DNA from: Sphingobacterium alkalisoli
Lineage (GTDB): Bacteria > Bacteroidota > Bacteroidia > Sphingobacteriales > Sphingobacteriaceae
Direction of reading: 5' to 3'
Assembly (NCBI RefSeq): GCF_005049105.1
Contig: NZ_SUKA01000003.1
Span: 744,001 to 808,000, forward strand
Length of the DNA: 64,000 bases
Positions 43,248-51,109 of this stretch are shown piece by piece. Under the pieces are notes generated by a model that was not told the origin of the DNA, did not search any database, and saw only the letters and a program-made list of their open reading frames with translations. How positions within the stretch are numbered: the first letter of the stretch is position 1; each line of letters opens with the position of its first letter. A program made the translations under genes and the position numbers.

Positions 43248-44219
43248 TTAATAAAGGATCACTGTATTCCCCTCCTTTCTAATTTTGTTTTGGTGAATAG
43301 ACTGTATGGCGCGTAAGGCCTCATCAACCGATACGTATTTTATGATTGGCATGCTATATTGCTGGCGGGCCACATGGTCATTACCGGCTCGGAGTACGAT
43401 GCCATACGTATTTTTGATGGCCAAGGCCAGCTCGTTAAATTCAGCATCTTGCAGCACCACTCTTCCACTGGTCCATGAATGGCTGTATTCCCGATCGAAA
43501 TCTTCGGTGAGACTATTGGCGCGTTCTTTTTCAAAACGGATGCGTTGGCCCTTTTCTAACGTACCCAGCATATGCGTACCGCGCTGCACCTGCACCCGAC
43601 CTGTAAATACAGAGATCACCTGTTCAGGCATTTCGCCGTAGGCCTGTATATTAAACGAAGTACCTAACACAGTCGTCTGTAAGACACCGGCCTGTACAAT
43701 GAAAGCACGGCTACTGTCTTTGGCCACATCGAAAAAGGCTTCTCCCGACAGCAGCTCCACCATCCGGGTTGTACGGCCATATTGGTTTTCATCGAAGCGA
43801 AGTTGGCTACGTGCGTTTAAGGTGATCGTCGACCCATCGGGCAGATCGACACGCTTGCGCTCGCCCACCTGCGTGGTAATGGTCCGGTATGCCGGTACAA
43901 CAGCTACATGCGCTTGCTGCTGCGACTCCTGCTGGGTATTCCAATAGAACAAGCCGATACTTGCAATCAAGAGAGCGACCGCAGTGACCAGCCAGCGCCC
44001 AAGAGGAAGATTTGATTTCTGTTTTACCGGTTCGGTGTTGTCGATCGTTGCCAGCAAGCGTCGCCAGGACTGATTGCGGCGCGCTTCGTTATCGGTCTCG
44101 GGTACCTGAATCCGGTCGTCCAAACTTTCGTACCAGTCGTCAAACAACTGTTTCTCCTGTTTGCTCGCCTGCCCCTGTTGATACCGATCTATTAAGAATC
44201 GAAATAATTTATTTCCCAC
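43248..44219 (-). CDS. FecR-family anti-sigma factor
   Basis: 323 residues. A cytosolic helical N-terminus (FRFLIDRYQQGQASKQEKQLFDDWYESL, DUF4880-like) binds the sigma factor. One membrane helix follows (WLVTAVALLIASIGLFYW, about 79-96). The periplasmic FecR domain has TTQVGERKRVDLPDGSTITLNARSQL, LLSGEAFFDVAKDSSRAFIV and TTVLGTSFNIQAYGE. The C-terminal STN-contacting part has LALAIKNTYGIVL. It passes the ligand signal from the TonB receptor to the sigma factor upstream. Confidence 0.93.
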   Translation of the reverse strand: MGNKLFRFLIDRYQQGQASKQEKQLFDDWYESLDDRIQVPETDNEARRNQSWRRLLATIDNTEPVKQKSNLPLGRWLVTAVALLIASIGLFYWNTQQESQQQAHVAVVPAYRTITTQVGERKRVDLPDGSTITLNARSQLRFDENQYGRTTRMVELLSGEAFFDVAKDSSRAFIVQAGVLQTTVLGTSFNIQAYGEMPEQVISVFTGRVQVQRGTHMLGTLEKGQRIRFEKERANSLTEDFDREYSHSWTSGRVVLQDAEFNELALAIKNTYGIVLRAGNDHVARQQYSMPIIKYVSVDEALRAIQSIHQNKIRKEGNTVILY

Positions 44220-44347
44220 GTGTTACTTATTGCTTTTATAAGTATGTCAGAAAAAAGGCCAAAAGGTACTTTTAAAAATTGTTACGATTACGTTAAGTGA
44301 TTGTTAAGTTAATGAATTCCTAAAACTGCGTGAAGAGATGAGTACAG

Positions 44348-44965
44348 TTAGTATGCCAATAGAAGGGTAAGAGACTGTGTTGCCAGTACAGCCAAGGTGC
44401 TATAAGCGTCCGAATTATTGACCAGCAAGGCATGCTGCAGACGCTTGCTTCCTACGCTTATATTATTTTTTACCGTTTGTTCCGACAGCCCCAGCTGTAC
44501 GGCGATATCGCGGATGCTAAGTTTGTCCCATTTGAGTAATATAGCTTGCTTCATATTGAGCGGCATGCTATCGAGTTCACGATCCAATAGGCGCTCCAGC
44601 GCGTAGTAGGCCTCCAGTTCATCCGGATTTTGTTGCACATAGTGATGCAGGTCGGTCGCCCATAAATCAAGTAACTGGGGTTTTACCTTGTTGGAGTTAA
44701 AGAAATCAATGATTTTATATTTGAGCATGCCGTACAGGTATGCAGGCAGATTCATCATGGTATCGAGTCGCTCGCGTTGTTCCCACAGTTGAATAAAGAG
44801 CTCCTGCACTAAATCCTCCGCTTGCTGCTCATTCCGAACACGTCGTAAGGCATGGTTATAGAGTTCTTCCCAGTACACACGATAAACAGCGCCAAAAGCG
44901 TCTTTATCGTTTCGTTCTTTGATGGCTAGCAGCCAACCTCGATGTAGTGGCACAACTTGGGACAT
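44348..44965 (-). CDS. ECF RNA polymerase sigma-70 factor
   Basis: 205 residues. Region 2: FGAVYRVYWEELYNHALRRV then AEDLVQELFIQLWEQRERL. Region 4 HTH: LSIRDIAVQLGLSEQTVKNNISVGSKRLQ. It is first in the sigma-FecR-TonB receptor order on the minus strand and is expected to switch on transcription of the receptor locus when the receptor is occupied. A 13-bp inverted repeat lies upstream of its promoter. Confidence 0.93.
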   Translation of the reverse strand: MSQVVPLHRGWLLAIKERNDKDAFGAVYRVYWEELYNHALRRVRNEQQAEDLVQELFIQLWEQRERLDTMMNLPAYLYGMLKYKIIDFFNSNKVKPQLLDLWATDLHHYVQQNPDELEAYYALERLLDRELDSMPLNMKQAILLKWDKLSIRDIAVQLGLSEQTVKNNISVGSKRLQHALLVNNSDAYSTLAVLATQSLTLLLAY

Positions 44966-45110: not shown

Positions 45111-45848
45111 TCATTTATCGAGATGAAATGTATGACCGATCCGCTTTTCCACCCGATCAGTCACGGAAATATGGATATGATAGTGTCCACTCGGCGCTTC
45201 TGCTAGATTTAGCGTTTTATTCAAGGTGTAATTTGTCAATCCTACTAGCCCGACTTCCGTAAATACATATTTCCGTGTCCATGCTGCAGACTGCACTTCG
45301 ATATAAATTTCTTGCAATCCGGAGGGAATCTTAATATCCGCTGTTACCGCTAATACATCACCGCTTAAGCTAATTTCAGCATTTGCTATCTGAGGAATGA
45401 GTGGATCTTTAAGAATAGTTAAAGATCCTTTATACCGAGTCTGTCCCCCATTTTCGTCGTATGCGATAAAAAGCACATCATAAACTCCCGCTCTCGCGTT
45501 CTCAGGAATGTAAATATGCTCATGAAAATGTAAACTTTCTGCTCCAGACACATTCTCGGTAAATGTCTGGCTGAATATCCATCCATGCCCTGATATGCTC
45601 GGCGTAATCTGAAGCTTCAACTGCTTTATTTTTGTACTTGCGGTTACTTTCGCCTCGAGATGTAAGTCGCCATTTACGTAAGCTGTCCTACTGTCATTTG
45701 TACCTATCTCTACATCCGAAATTTGCAATACAGTTCTCGTATCAATAGGTTCTGGCTGCGCATCCTTCTCCTTCGCGCAATTCACGAACAAAAACGGAAA
45801 AGCAAATAAAATAACATAGCGGAAGATAGCGCATTTTTTTGTCGTCAT
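45111..45848 (-). CDS. DUF4625 lipoprotein 1 of the zip operon
   Basis: 245 residues with a lipobox (FLFVNCAKEKD). Two similar beta domains follow; the first has LHFHEHIYIPENARAGVYDVLF, the HEH motif of the DUF4625 family, and the second ends LAEAPSGHYHIHISVTDRVEKRIGHTF. The clustered histidines suggest metal binding, inferred from context with the zip transporter. It is last of a four-gene minus-strand operon, 24 bases behind the next DUF4625 gene. Confidence 0.8.
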   Translation of the reverse strand: MTTKKCAIFRYVILFAFPFLFVNCAKEKDAQPEPIDTRTVLQISDVEIGTNDSRTAYVNGDLHLEAKVTASTKIKQLKLQITPSISGHGWIFSQTFTENVSGAESLHFHEHIYIPENARAGVYDVLFIAYDENGGQTRYKGSLTILKDPLIPQIANAEISLSGDVLAVTADIKIPSGLQEIYIEVQSAAWTRKYVFTEVGLVGLTNYTLNKTLNLAEAPSGHYHIHISVTDRVEKRIGHTFHLDK

Positions 45849-45872
45849 TTCTTACTAGATTAGTCGGTATGG

Positions 45873-46901
45873 CTACTGCAGTAACTTATAAGTACCAAAA
45901 TAAAACAACCCCTGCGATCTGAAAACAGTAAGCGAGTCGCCACTAACGAAACCTAATTCTGTTCCCCCTGCACTGTTCTTAAATTTAAAAGCGCTGTTAT
46001 TAATATTTTCAAACGCGTTAGTAGGCTCTGCCGCAGCAGCCCTCTCCGCTGCACCGTAGTGACTACCCGTTGCATTGAATTTATAATACCAATCGGCTTT
46101 GTTGCTCGCAGGCCCCATTTTAAACTCTTCACCTCTAAATGTTTTACCGACAAACTGGTTCTGTTCATTTATAGCCAAAAGTACACCGGTGGTTTTATAT
46201 ACCATAGACAGGGCTCTGTAATAAGCAGAGGTAAGCTCATGCTTCTCATTTATTGCAAACCTGGCAGTGCGGTAGTTATTGGGATCGCTAATCGTAACGA
46301 GGAGTGAATCGGACGTCAGCTCGTATTCGCCCACAAGATCGTTGCCCGACCCCATGAAGACGGCTTTATTATCTTCCAATAACCTAATAAAATACACACT
46401 ATTATAAGATCCACTTGCCGGAGAAAGCGTACCTGCCACAAAATGTTCAGTAATATCAAATGCTTTTTCGAGTGTCAACTCCGACTCAACGGTAGTCTTA
46501 TTTCCCACGTTATCCGTCACCGTAAAATCGAGGTGATAGGCACCCGCAGGTGCATCAGAAGGAATGTCAATATGTTCGTGAAATAAGGTATTCCTTACGC
46601 CGATATACGGTCCGTCATTGTAAGATTTCAGGATTTTAAAATTGCCAGCTTCCTGATGGATTTCAATCTCTATTTTAGCAATGAGGCCTACAGCGATTAT
46701 ATCGCCTTCTAAATGCAGTTCGGATCCCACAACTACCTTTTTGCTGTTTGACGCCCCAATCTCGGACAAATTAATCACTGGGGCTTCGACCAATTCTACC
46801 TTGTCGTCTTTACAAGATGTAATGACTCCACCTAAACTTAATAGTAGAAATAGAAGATAAATTGTATTTTTTTTCATGTGAATTTTAGTTTTTAATGTCA
46901 A
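45873..46901 (-). CDS. DUF4625 lipoprotein 2 of the zip operon, with extra C-terminal domain
   Basis: 342 residues with a lipobox (GGVITSCKDD). The first ~140 residues are a DUF4625 domain with NTLFHEHIDIPSDAPAGAYHLDFTVTDNVGN. The rest is a beta-rich domain of unknown type (SVYFIRLLEDNKAVFMGSGNDL, LYYFGTYKLLQ at the end) that resembles a lipocalin-like or ZinT-like add-on only in general composition. It follows the third DUF4625 gene by 14 bases and precedes the first by 24. Confidence 0.78.
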   Translation of the reverse strand: MTLKTKIHMKKNTIYLLFLLLSLGGVITSCKDDKVELVEAPVINLSEIGASNSKKVVVGSELHLEGDIIAVGLIAKIEIEIHQEAGNFKILKSYNDGPYIGVRNTLFHEHIDIPSDAPAGAYHLDFTVTDNVGNKTTVESELTLEKAFDITEHFVAGTLSPASGSYNSVYFIRLLEDNKAVFMGSGNDLVGEYELTSDSLLVTISDPNNYRTARFAINEKHELTSAYYRALSMVYKTTGVLLAINEQNQFVGKTFRGEEFKMGPASNKADWYYKFNATGSHYGAAERAAAAEPTNAFENINNSAFKFKNSAGGTELGFVSGDSLTVFRSQGLFYFGTYKLLQ

Positions 46902-46915
46902 ATAATTGCGTTATT

Positions 46916-47662
46916 TTACTTCTTCTCAAAACTGCCGCGCGTTTCAAACGTCCGATCTTGCTGATCTTTTACCTGTAGCACGACCTCATACCTACCTTTA
47001 GGCACATCAGCTACTTTAAGGTGTTCATGGAAGTTGTATTCCAATTTGCCTACCATGCTTGCCTTTTCGAATGGATACTCCTTACTCCAGGAATCCCCTA
47101 TTATGCTAATCGTAACCGATTTGATCGTTTTGGCTGCACTCAGCTGGCTTTCCAGATGTAGATCTGTACCATCGGCGTTAATGCCTACCTCCAGTTTGGA
47201 TGCAAGTGGTATCGAGCTATCCACTGATATATTAAAATCAACAGTTGATTCGACTTCGGTCAAATCCGCATATATAACCTTTATTTTCAAATGGTAATCC
47301 CCTACCTTAGCATCCATTGGAATAGGGATAGCCTCTTTAAAATCGGCTGATTTCTGTCCTGCAAGTCCGTCTCGATACCGCTGTGAAAAATTCCAGCCCG
47401 ATCCCGATTTCGGCGAAATAGCCAGTTCAATTTCCTTAATATCTTTATCACCCTTCACCTTCGCCGTTACAGGCATAGCTATTCCTGCAAAGCCCTTCGG
47501 GTCGCTATCCGTACCCACTTTTAGATCCGTAATCGCTGTATCGTTGCCGCTATTACAACTGTACAGTACGCCAAGTCCGATAAAGAGCAATACAATACAG
47601 GTAATATATCTACACGCTGCGGGCAATAGATATTCTTTAAAAAATTTGATAATGTTATTCAT
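46916..47662 (-). CDS. DUF4625 lipoprotein 3 of the zip operon
   Basis: 248 residues from ATG 47662 (MNNIIKFFKEYLLPAACRY), which overlaps the zip stop codon by 8 bases, so it is translationally coupled. The frame is open upstream to 47917 but that part is the antisense of the zip histidine-rich tail. Lipobox GVLYSCNSGN, then two beta domains; the second has YNFHEHLKVADVPKGRYEVVLQV. The first domain lacks the HEH motif (AIPIPMDAKVGDYHLKI). Probably exported to the envelope, working with the zip transporter. Confidence 0.78.
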   Translation of the reverse strand: MNNIIKFFKEYLLPAACRYITCIVLLFIGLGVLYSCNSGNDTAITDLKVGTDSDPKGFAGIAMPVTAKVKGDKDIKEIELAISPKSGSGWNFSQRYRDGLAGQKSADFKEAIPIPMDAKVGDYHLKIKVIYADLTEVESTVDFNISVDSSIPLASKLEVGINADGTDLHLESQLSAAKTIKSVTISIIGDSWSKEYPFEKASMVGKLEYNFHEHLKVADVPKGRYEVVLQVKDQQDRTFETRGSFEKK

Positions 47663-48521
47663 GATTGTGTTCGTTATGGGTTTCATCCTTTTGCTCGGGC
47701 TCATGTCCATGATGATTGTGGTCGTGGTCATGATCGTCATGGCTGTGACCGTGATCATGTCCGCGTTCGCCATGCTGATGATGACTATGATCATGGCCGT
47801 CAAAAAATAGATTTCCGACTGCAAGCAAGAGCCCGATAAACACAGCCAACATTTTCCGCTTGTTAAACGTATGGTGGTCTGCCGATCCCGATTCAAATAA
47901 GATCGTCGTCGAAACATGCAGGAAAATACCGATTACCACCGCCATGATTTTATCGTAGTAGAGGTGGATGTCGCCAATACTTCCCTCGCTGATTCCCTTA
48001 CTGACCAGAAATCCCAGTGGGGTCATGAAGGCAAAAATCAATAAGCAGATGGCTATTTTCCTTTTAGACAAGTTGGTCGCAATCAGCAAGCTGCCCAACG
48101 CAAATGCTGCAGGTATATGGTGGATCGAAATACCAAATACCAGCTGGGATTGCTGACCGGAAGCCAATGGCATACCTTCCAAAAATGCATGCAGACATAG
48201 ACTGATCATAATGGCCAAAGGAAATGCACTGTGATTTCCGTGGTGCACATGGCCGTGTTCAATCCCCTGTGAGAAATGTTCCAACACCAACTGAAAGATA
48301 AAGCCACCCAATATATAGAGGCCTATCGTCGATCCGGCGGTTTCGTTTCCTTGATAGACATGTGGAATGAGGTGCAGTACGGTAATTCCAAATAGATACG
48401 CCCCACTAAACGAAAGAATAAGCTTAAGGAGTGAGGTACTGTCTCTCTTCACGAAAAAAACCGATAGACCGCTTAATAAAGCGGGCAGAAATAAGATTAA
48501 AATAATAAGTAAAGGATGCAT
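47655..48521 (-). CDS. ZIP-family metal transporter
   Basis: 288 residues from ATG 48521 (MHPLLIILILFLPALLSGLS); an upstream in-frame ATG at 48569 would cover the promoter. About eight hydrophobic segments carry the ZIP binuclear metal motifs SLCLHAFLEGMPLASG (TM4) and ISIHHIPAAFALGS (TM5). The C-terminal ~45 residues are extremely histidine-rich (GHDHSHHQHGERGHDHGHSH). It imports zinc or a similar divalent ion. First of an operon with three DUF4625 lipoproteins. Its promoter carries the shared operator at 48565-48579. Confidence 0.9.
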   Translation of the reverse strand: MHPLLIILILFLPALLSGLSVFFVKRDSTSLLKLILSFSGAYLFGITVLHLIPHVYQGNETAGSTIGLYILGGFIFQLVLEHFSQGIEHGHVHHGNHSAFPLAIMISLCLHAFLEGMPLASGQQSQLVFGISIHHIPAAFALGSLLIATNLSKRKIAICLLIFAFMTPLGFLVSKGISEGSIGDIHLYYDKIMAVVIGIFLHVSTTILFESGSADHHTFNKRKMLAVFIGLLLAVGNLFFDGHDHSHHQHGERGHDHGHSHDDHDHDHNHHGHEPEQKDETHNEHNHE

Positions 48522-48538: not shown

Positions 48539-48569
48539 CAAAGATAACATATAGAAATACTAAATGCAA
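48539..48569 (-). promoter_or_regulatory. Promoter of the zip operon
   Basis: Minus strand: TTG at 48569-48567, 20-nt spacer, -7 element TATCTTTG at 48546-48539. The -33 TTG is part of the left TGCAA half-site of the operator at 48565-48579. It lies 18 bases before the zip ATG. Confidence 0.7.
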
Positions 48570-48579
48570 CTATATTGCT
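48565..48579. promoter_or_regulatory. Zur-like operator shared by two divergent promoters
   Basis: TGCAACTATATTGCT, one base off a TGCAA-N5-TTGCA palindrome. It sits between the zip and GTPase operons and overlaps the -33 elements of both promoters. Two better copies lie before the histidine-rich lipoprotein gene. A zinc-responsive repressor such as Zur is the obvious candidate; this is inference. Confidence 0.65.
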
Positions 48580-48605
48580 TTTATGAAATATACTTTATAC
48601 TTTTG
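48575..48605 (+). promoter_or_regulatory. Promoter of the small ORF/GTPase operon
   Basis: TTG at 48575-48577, 20-nt spacer, perfect -7 element TACTTTTG at 48598-48605. The -33 TTG is part of the right half-site of the operator at 48565-48579. The first start codon is at 48628. Confidence 0.75.
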
Positions 48606-48868: not shown

Positions 48869-50068
48869 ATGAACCAAAAAAAATTACCCGTTACGGTACT
48901 AAGCGGATTTCTTGGAGCCGGAAAGACCACCCTTTTAAATCATATCCTGCATAATAAGGATAACCTCAAGGTAGCCGTTATTGTAAACGACATGAGTGAG
49001 GTGAATATCGACGCGCAATTAGTAGCGAAAGAAAATACCTTATCCCGCACAGAAGAGAAATTAGTAGAAATGAGCAACGGATGCATTTGTTGTACCCTTC
49101 GTGAAGATCTGATGGTCGAAGTCGAAAGGCTTGCCAAAGAGAATCGGTTTGACTACCTCTTAATCGAAAGTACCGGGATTTCTGAACCTGTCCCAGTGGC
49201 TCAAACATTCAGTTACACAGATGAAAATAAGGGTATAGACCTTTCGGCATTTAGTTATATCGACACCATGGTTACAGTTGTCGACTGTTATAACTTTTTC
49301 AAAGATTTCGGTTCAGACGACTTGCTTCTCGACCGGGAATTGACGGACGACGAATATGATTCCCGCACCATCGTGAACTTACTGACCGACCAGATCGAGT
49401 TTGCCAACGTCATTCTGCTCAACAAGACTGATCTTGTTTCAGATGAAACAATCGGTATACTGGAAGCCGCCATTAAGAAACTGAATCCAGAAGCAAAGCT
49501 CATCAGATCGCATTTTGGACGGGTGGATACCAAAGAGATATTGGGCACAAAGCGCTTTGATTTCGAGAAGGCTTCAGCATCTGCAGGGTGGATTAAAGAA
49601 CTCGAGAACGAGCATACACCCGAAACGGAAGAGTACGGTATCTCTTCATTCGTATTCCGTACCAGCAGACCCTTTCATCCCCAACGGTGGCACCATTACT
49701 TAAACGAGGTATATCCGCATAATATCATCCGGACAAAGGGCTTGTTTTGGTTGGCCTCAAGGCCGCACACCGCCGTTAGCTTTAGCCAAGCGGGAGGCAG
49801 CCTACGGATTGAAAATGCCGGATCCTGGTGGTGCAGTATTCCCGAGAACGAACGCGAGCATTATGCCGACTATATTGAAAATAAAGATTATATCCTATCC
49901 CGTTGGGATCGGGAATGGGCAGACCGAAAAACGGAATTGGTATTCATCGGTCAGGACATGGATAAGGCGGAGCACGTTGCTGCTTTGGGAGCTTGCCTAT
50001 TGACGGAAAATGAAACCAATAACTGGGAGAATACATCTTGGGTGGATCCATTTCCGCAGAACTTCTAG
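48869..50068 (+). CDS. CobW/ZNG1-family zinc-chaperone GTPase
   Basis: 399 residues, G3E family. Walker A GFLGAGKT is at 13-20. The metal-binding motif CICC (72-75) lies in [13 protein letters not shown]. The G-domain continues with [18 protein letters not shown] and a late LNKTDLV guanine-specificity motif. A C-terminal CobW_C domain has [14 protein letters not shown], with more histidines than usual. Such GTPases (ZagA, ZigA, ZNG1) deliver zinc to target enzymes in scarcity. The promoter of its operon carries the operator shared with zip. Confidence 0.92.
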
Positions 50069-50227
50069 GTAAATCGTACTTCTATCCTCACTACCCCCCA
50101 GCGATGTATTCATCTCTGGGGTAGAAAATGCATTCTTTGACGTAACAGGTACCTGTAACACCTTTAATCGAAGCTGGGTAGACCTAATTCCATGTTCCTT
50201 TTTTAATAATTTCGTAAGGTCCTCCAT
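50069..50227 (-). pseudogene. Truncated Fur-family (Zur-like) regulator remnant
   Basis: Read from ATG 50227, about 53 residues follow the pattern of a Fur-type winged helix: MEDLTKLLKKEHGIRSTQLR, then LKVLQV, TSKNAFSTPEM, SLGG and DRSTIY, which matches the D-R-x-T-x-Y recognition helix. The similarity stops exactly where the antisense of the GTPase gene's stop begins. There is no dimerisation domain and no HxH metal site. It looks like a zinc-uptake regulator destroyed by rearrangement, next to operators it could have bound. Confidence 0.6.
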
Positions 50228-50328: not shown

Positions 50329-51039
50329 TTAATGATCGTGCCCGTGTTCAGCGTGGATTTCAAATTTCAATTCCAAAACGTTCTCACCGGCAAATAGCGT
50401 TGCATAATTGTCTTTGTTCCAATCTGTACGCGTAACCGTAGCTTTCAATCCTGTATTTAGCTTTCTCAATACATACTTCACTTCTTTCATTGCACCCTCG
50501 TTATCGTGACCGATCGTAAAGTAGCTCAAGATTCCAGTGGTCTCGAACTGACCACTTACATCAGTATCGTCGCCATATTTTAAATCGCGTGGTTGAAAAA
50601 TGGCACCGCTCTCATCATCCGTATCCGGATTTAAGATAAAGTTACCCCCTACCAAAAAAGCTTTATAATTATCGGCTACCGCTTTGCTGGCAATAAAGTC
50701 ATTCTGCACTTCTTTTCCATTATAATCCCATGCTTTCAGCTCGATTTTATAGACCGCGTCCGCTTCCAGATGCAAGTGGCCGCCAGACGTAGCATCACCA
50801 TTTTCATCAAACTTGATCGTTACGGACTCCCCTTCTACACCAGCAGCAAGACCGTGGAAATGGTCACCATGTGGGTAAACGGCCTCACCGCTCACTTCTG
50901 TCAGTATAAGCTCTGAGCGCTCAATACCTTCTTTTATCGGATCGTTGTCGTCATCCTTGTTACAAGAAGAAAGCGAGAACATCGTAAATCCAACCAACGC
51001 TAGTGCGACTAAAAATTTGTTTTGTTTTTGTGTAATCAT
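50329..51039 (-). CDS. Histidine-rich lipoprotein, probably zinc-binding
   Basis: 236 residues with a lipobox (FSLSSCNKDDD). Metal-ligand-like clusters are visible: VYPHGDHFHGL contains an HxxHxH histidine-triad-type motif (about residue 57), GGHLHLEADA (about 87), and the C-terminal HAEHGHDH. The body looks beta-rich. No catalytic motif. It is exported and probably binds or collects zinc at the cell surface. Two operator-like sites cover its promoter. It is a single-gene unit ending in a strong hairpin. Confidence 0.75.
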   Translation of the reverse strand: MITQKQNKFLVALALVGFTMFSLSSCNKDDDNDPIKEGIERSELILTEVSGEAVYPHGDHFHGLAAGVEGESVTIKFDENGDATSGGHLHLEADAVYKIELKAWDYNGKEVQNDFIASKAVADNYKAFLVGGNFILNPDTDDESGAIFQPRDLKYGDDTDVSGQFETTGILSYFTIGHDNEGAMKEVKYVLRKLNTGLKATVTRTDWNKDNYATLFAGENVLELKFEIHAEHGHDH

Positions 51040-51055
51040 AATAAATTTGTATTAA

Positions 51056-51070
51056 TGCAATTAAGTTGCA
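51056..51070. promoter_or_regulatory. Operator-like site over the lipoprotein promoter -7 region
   Basis: TGCAATTAAGTTGCA, a perfect TGCAA-N5-TTGCA palindrome. It overlaps the end of the -7 element at 51076-51069 and the expected start of transcription. Same motif as at 48565 and 51095. Confidence 0.65.
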
Positions 51071-51099
51071 AACATACAAACTGAAAATAATAAATGCAA
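51069..51099 (-). promoter_or_regulatory. Promoter of the histidine-rich lipoprotein
   Basis: Minus strand: TTG 51099-51097, 20-nt spacer, -7 element TATGTTTG at 51076-51069. The TTG is inside the operator at 51095-51109; the -7 touches the one at 51056-51070. Confidence 0.7.
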
Positions 51100-51109
51100 T
51101 ATAATTGCA
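51095..51109. promoter_or_regulatory. Operator-like site over the lipoprotein promoter -33 region
   Basis: TGCAATATAATTGCA, a perfect palindrome with flanks that extend it by three bases on each side (AAA and TTT). It contains the -33 TTG of the minus-strand promoter. Best copy of the motif in the window. Confidence 0.7.

Follow-up and report, generated by a model that had tools for sequence, protein, structure and literature searches.

The window, by which we mean the whole 64,000-nucleotide stretch of Sphingobacterium alkalisoli DNA analysed here, contains two sets of genes that point away from a short palindrome (Table 1). To its left lies zip, which encodes a ZIP-family zinc transporter with a His-rich tail, followed by three genes for DUF4625 lipoproteins; judging from their spacing, zip and these three genes are probably co-transcribed as one operon. 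DUF4625-like lipoproteins are also encoded within a Fur/MerC/TonB-receptor cluster of a relative (L243), and membership in that cluster suggests a zinc role for the domain. To the right of the palindrome, a small ORF precedes the gene for a COG0523/CobW GTPase. The family to which the small ORF belongs (about 70 aa) shares two invariant Cys residues and an invariant ET..F...YG..H core in an alignment of 18 relatives, and the ORF has no match in Pfam or NCBIfam. In L238, a relative stands before MerC, beside a Fur gene, and not at the GTPase. The GTPase resembles the zinc metallochaperone ZigA, matching model NF038288 over its full length, although its score remains below the curated cut-off (558.6 vs. 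600 bits). Directly behind the GTPase is a remnant of a Fur-family gene, encoding the HTH part only (50069-50227, minus strand), whose counterpart in S. olei is full-length (L106:6215-6601) and has a degenerate sensory site without equivalents of H77 and C88. Left of the zip operon, at 43248-44965 on the minus strand, the translations, judged by eye, indicate a gene pair for an ECF sigma factor and a FecR-like anti-sigma factor.

Table 1. Operators, predicted promoters, genes, and candidate regulators, with positions in the window unless a contig is named
Feature	Position	Strand	Details
Shared operator TGCAACTATATTGCT	48565..48579	none	Direct reading; PWM 25.2 bits; kept in relatives
Extended operator AAATGCAAC-TAT-ATTGCTTTT	48562-48582		Longer form of the 48565..48579 site
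Predicted leftward zip promoter	48539..48569	minus	TTG 48569-48567, 20-nt spacer, TATCTTTG 48546-48539
Predicted rightward small ORF/GTPase promoter	48575..48605	plus	TTG 48575-48577, 20-nt spacer, TACTTTTG 48598-48605
zip, ZIP-family zinc transporter	47655..48521	minus	Pfam PF02535, E=3e-22; start codon 48521
Three DUF4625 lipoprotein genes after zip	45111..47665	minus	Pfam PF15418 in 3/3
Small ORF, 78 aa	48628..48864	plus	Conserved family
COG0523/CobW GTPase, ZigA-like	48869..50068	plus	PF02492 and PF07683; NF038288 (ZigA) 558.6 bits
Second operator TGCAATATAATTGCA	51095..51109	none	PWM 26.4; covers -33 of lipoprotein promoter
Predicted lipoprotein promoter		minus	TTG 51099-51097, 20-nt spacer, TATGTTTG 51076-51069
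Third operator TGCAATTAAGTTGCA	51056..51070	none	PWM 22.5; over -7/start region of lipoprotein promoter
His-rich lipoprotein	50329..51039	minus	Predicted third target transcript of the window
L024, candidate Zur	C12:73477-73935		153 aa; PF01475 40.9 bits (cut-off 23.1)
L023, Zur-like paralogue	C21:11460
L022, Fur/PerR-like			Adjoins purA; without H77/C88 equivalents

The first-pass annotation had proposed a single operator placed such that each half-site provides the -33 box of a divergent promoter, and a base-by-base check of the sequence found this placement to be exact: both TTG triplets of the palindrome at 48565-48579 are -33 elements of divergent promoters, with TAnnTTTG 20 nt away. The right half-site, in contrast, had been given incorrectly as TTGCA; the sequence reads TTGCT (48575-48579). 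Right half-sites of the TTGCT type also occur in L043, L044, L045, L050, L106, and L107, indicating that the asymmetry itself is common to several Sphingobacterium and near relatives; possibly, it is tuned for promoter strength. Housekeeping promoters of Bacteroidota take the form TTTG / TAnnTTTG. The promoters in the window are like these in having TAnnTTTG 19-20 nt from the TTG, but differ in that the -33 TTG doubles, on both strands, as a predicted repressor half-site. On the zip side, S. olei likewise has TATCTTTG with a 20-nt spacer, and L043 and L044 have TACCTTTG; the rightward layout of TTG, 20-nt spacer, and -7 box recurs in many relatives. The palindrome is flanked by perfect -7 boxes left and right in the window, S. 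olei (L106), L043, and L044 (spacers 20/20 in all four), and in L048/L110 (20/18), L107 (20/17), and L129 (20/19). The operator TGCAACTATATTGCT has the form of a 7-1-7 inverted repeat with an AT-rich centre, and overlaps promoter elements of genes for zinc uptake and a zinc chaperone. Fur-family proteins can also occupy a box of ~21 bp as a pair of dimers, and the single dimer proposed for 48565-48579 may therefore be two.

Comparison with S. olei, which is syntenic with the window at 97.6-98%, offers a history for this arrangement. In that genome, zip and the small ORF are separated by a gene for a ~170-aa exported protein; this gene faces away from the GTPase, with the orthologous operator between the two, and a further operator (TGCAACAAAGTTGCA, L106:4002-4016) belongs to zip. 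The window has 16 bp in place of ~720 bp, with the junction at the zip start codon, so that zip now lies on its neighbour's promoter and the shared operator. Given the extra gene and the separate zip operator in S. olei, the pairing of zip and GTPase under one operator is probably derived. Since other Sphingobacteriaceae (L044 and L048) encode relatives of the ~170-aa protein on the left of the GTPase, it is simpler to assume that the window's lineage underwent a deletion. Elsewhere in the window's genome, at C12:138403, lies a gene for a protein related to the missing one (53% identity). The label DUF3299, assigned to the ~170-aa protein by eye, receives no support from Pfam and was dropped.

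Within the window alone, enrichment of the motif was too weak to judge it by (seven matches to TGCAAN5TTGCA in a one-mismatch search vs. 3.8 expected), and we used conservation in relatives instead. The 121 Sphingobacteriaceae genomes searched yielded 22 GTPase orthologues. In the 420 bp upstream, 21 of these, the window's own included, show the motif with no more than one mismatch, and 14 match it perfectly; shuffled upstream regions give an expectation of ~1 and 0.05, respectively. The sole family GTPase without a site (L059) comes from a genome, G008, that has no L024 match but is only 76% complete. Exact matches across the family were rejected as evidence and their raw counts left unused, as many are coding coincidences (the 3' end of a Fur paralogue, unrelated genes). 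For the Bacteroidota, the comparison comprised 80 named genome contigs holding the GTPase locus; the motif is present with at most one mismatch within 400 bp in 38 (27 perfect), against expectations of ~3 and 0.1. A PWM built from the relatives' sites (consensus AAATGCAAC-WWW-GTTGCATTT, i.e., TGCAAY-WWW-RTTGCA with A/T flanks) detected a site of at least 20 bits within ~5 kb at 66/80 loci, vs. 0/80 in reversed sequence; 28 of the 42 loci that had given no site to the PWM still have such a site elsewhere in their examined stretch, and 14 of the 80 have none. Sites were also found before MerC/ABC/FtsX operons and Fur genes. Two records, titled Nostoc (L141) and Candidatus Planktophila (L156), hold Bacteroidota-type GTPase loci at 66-67% identity, and are probably the result of contamination or mis-binning.

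The motif, written TGCAAYN-N-NRTTGCA, is the 7-1-7 inverted repeat typical of Fur-family boxes, and its link to the promoter is shared widely. At 43 of 88 sites upstream of GTPase genes, the gene-side TTG lies 19-20 nt from TAnnTTTG (at most one mismatch), vs. ~1.8 expected, and a far-side spacing of 20 occurs nine times, vs. 1.1 expected. This excess indicates that the palindrome incorporates the -33 TTG far outside the window's genome as well. Other Sphingobacteriaceae have, instead of one shared operator, two palindromes 38-39 bp apart.

With a PWM derived from other genomes, only three sites of at least 14 bits were found in the 64 kb of the window (25.2 at 48565, 22.5 at 51056, and 26.4 at 51095), and none in its reversed sequence. 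The sites at 51056 and 51095 are 39 bp apart, a spacing (38-39 bp) that recurs in relatives, and they precede the gene for a His-rich lipoprotein for which Pfam gives no match. In the genome as a whole, which was covered by pattern searches and PWM scoring of selected stretches, at least four sites exceed 22 bits: 48565, the two before the His-rich lipoprotein, and C17:78752. The last lies between genes for a TonB-dependent receptor and a lipoprotein, in the same divergent form as at 48565 (leftward TTG-19-TATTTTTG; rightward TTG-20-TACCTTCG), and the best solved match of the receptor is ZnuD (4rdr, E=7e-22; next match 1e-6). Next in score among the genome sites identified is one of 18.0 bits, which borders a long open frame (L190). 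The motif is thus both conserved before orthologous targets and non-random in the genome, where each of the four strong sites identified (more than 22 bits) accompanies a zinc-type gene, namely zip and the ZigA-like GTPase, the His-rich lipoprotein (two sites), or the ZnuD-like receptor. A variant palindrome, TGCGAYNNNRTCGCA, was rejected as a regulon motif of this genome, being close to its control (34 vs. 26) and revealing no regulon.

Five proteins encoded by the genome match PF01475 (L022-L026). L026, which resembles a BlaI-type repressor, and L025, with a short partial match, were set aside, leaving L022, L023, and L024 as real candidates. The ligands of sites A and B have been listed for E. 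coli Zur, and Cys88 singled out as the best-conserved sensory residue in that Zur subfamily (PMC4219657). Both L024 and L023 align with H77, C88, H96, and both CxxC pairs of that protein, and the ligands are kept throughout the Fur clade (H77 in 58/61, C88 in 56/61, H96 in 60/61, and the CxxC pairs in 61/61); at the sensory-site position E111, conservation is only partial, with E in 25 and D in 19 of the 61. L024, encoded at C12:73477, accordingly combines a FUR domain with the sensory-site Cys88/His77 equivalents and the two structural CxxC pairs. While it shares these residues with E. coli Zur (PDB 4MTD), it is distant in sequence (31 bits, E=2e-6), and it falls below the curated cut-off of the NCBI Zur model NF008646 (43.2 vs. 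167 bits); as that model is an E. coli-type equivalog (PRK11639), the low score rules out that subfamily alone. By score, the best solved match of L024 is Vibrio cholerae Fur (40 bits), and its identity as a Zur therefore rests on ligands and gene context.

That context comes from relatives, the C12:73477 gene not being adjacent to the operator in its own genome. A Fur-family gene is present at 27/80 Bacteroidota GTPase loci. In L060, a Fur gene of the L024 clade and the GTPase gene point away from each other across a perfect site; in seven Pedobacter loci (L131, L132, L138, L148, L158, L174, and L184), a MerC-ABC-FtsX-Fur operon with an L024-clade Fur is divergent from the GTPase, with two shared sites; and in L242, such a Fur is the last gene of an operator-MerC-ABC-FtsX-Fur arrangement. 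Motif sites upstream of Fur genes (L236-L238 and L240) suggest that these genes are autoregulated. Further, in two Sphingobacterium genomes that possess the operator (G102 and G117), the orthologue of C12:73477 is the only such protein detected (E<=1e-12).

The best reading of 48565-48579 is a Bacteroidota Zur box, whose predicted binder is the C12:73477 protein or a close paralogue. We put at roughly 0.8 the probability that it is a Zur-type operator at which a Zn-loaded Fur-family repressor, with C12:73477 as the best candidate, represses both operons. The earlier suggestion of a Zur (or analogous) operator of this lineage thus finds support in the genomic distribution of the motif and its conservation before GTPase orthologues. 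When zinc is sufficient, one or more Zn-loaded Fur-family dimers would bind the palindrome and keep RNA polymerase off both -33 elements, silencing zip and the DUF4625 lipoproteins to the left as well as the small ORF and ZigA-like GTPase to the right. As zinc drops, the repressor would leave, and both operons would start together; the His-rich lipoprotein encoded at 50329..51039 and the ZnuD-like receptor on the other contig would be co-regulated.

We considered it unlikely, if well worth weighing, that the same kind of operator is served by the paralogue C21:11460, or that both proteins share the site. This paralogue too keeps H77/C88-like residues, its clade adjoins GTPase loci in several Flavobacteriia, and in L239 the genes for a Fur of its type and an FAD oxidoreductase diverge on either side of TGCAATATAGTTGCA; against it, the promoter region of C21:11460 itself has a different palindrome, TTGCGATATAATCGCAA, and nothing of its type was detected among the proteins of G102, G117, G083, or G096, of which G102 and G117 keep the GTPase operator. 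The altered palindrome lies at L023:1889-1927 (C21:11944-11982), between the C21:11460 gene and an oppositely oriented gene for an FAD oxidoreductase; in relatives L245-L247, TGCAAN5TTGCA precedes the same oxidoreductase. Quite improbable, in our estimate, is a Fur-family operator responding to another metal (Mn, Ni, Co, or Fe). Strict zinc specificity does not hold for all of the ZIP, COG0523, and MerC families, which would allow it, but the ZnuD match of the receptor, the 558.6-bit score of the GTPase against the ZigA model, and the retention of Cys88 in 56/61 clade proteins argue for zinc. Finally, the idea that the TTGs are ordinary promoter letters in a coincidental palindrome, which the weak enrichment in the window and the presence of TTG in the promoter consensus on both strands might favour, is refuted in practice by the family, Bacteroidota, and PWM conservation: conservation extends to the TGC/GCA flanks, which no promoter needs, many of the sites form full palindromes, another site is often found 38-39 bp off, mostly without its own gene-side promoter, and the reversed-sequence control gave 0/80.

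Like the Zur boxes of Firmicutes and Proteobacteria, the putative Zur box described here is an AT-rich inverted repeat of 7-1-7 spacing that precedes zinc uptake genes and COG0523 GTPases; unlike them, its half-site is TGCAAC.., and we know of no characterised Zur box with such a half-site. How zinc controls genes has been charted well for Proteobacteria, Firmicutes, Actinobacteria, and Cyanobacteria. For Bacteroidota, we found no published Zur box in the open-access literature. Comparative work on COG0523 and Zur covers Bacilli, alpha/beta/gamma-Proteobacteria, and Cyanobacteria, but not Bacteroidetes (PMC2770081), and a review of Zur mentions neither Bacteroid- nor Flavobacter- (PMC6103462). 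The Porphyromonas Fur papers concern a different, non-Zur protein (PMC6613475, PMC4222909), and a Riemerella zinc paper deals with the MerR-type ZntR (PMC11960050).

We regard the locus as the lineage's version of a well-known type of regulation, in which promoter and operator are fused. Whether this extends to the phylum we hold to be an even bet: a Bacteroidota zinc box, TGCAACnnnGTTGCA, whose half-site is the -33 of the sigma factor, would act either as one palindrome serving two divergent promoters or as two, ~39 bp apart, each covering the -33 of one promoter and the start of the other, and its regulator would belong to a separate Fur clade rather than being an E. coli-type Zur orthologue. 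Bacteroidota dominate gut and many soil communities. The box points to zinc roles for the two-Cys small protein, the DUF4625 lipoproteins, the MerC-ABC-FtsX operons, and the FAD oxidoreductase, and, with the box defined, a candidate repressor named, and only a few targets listed, a Bacteroidota zinc regulon becomes directly testable.
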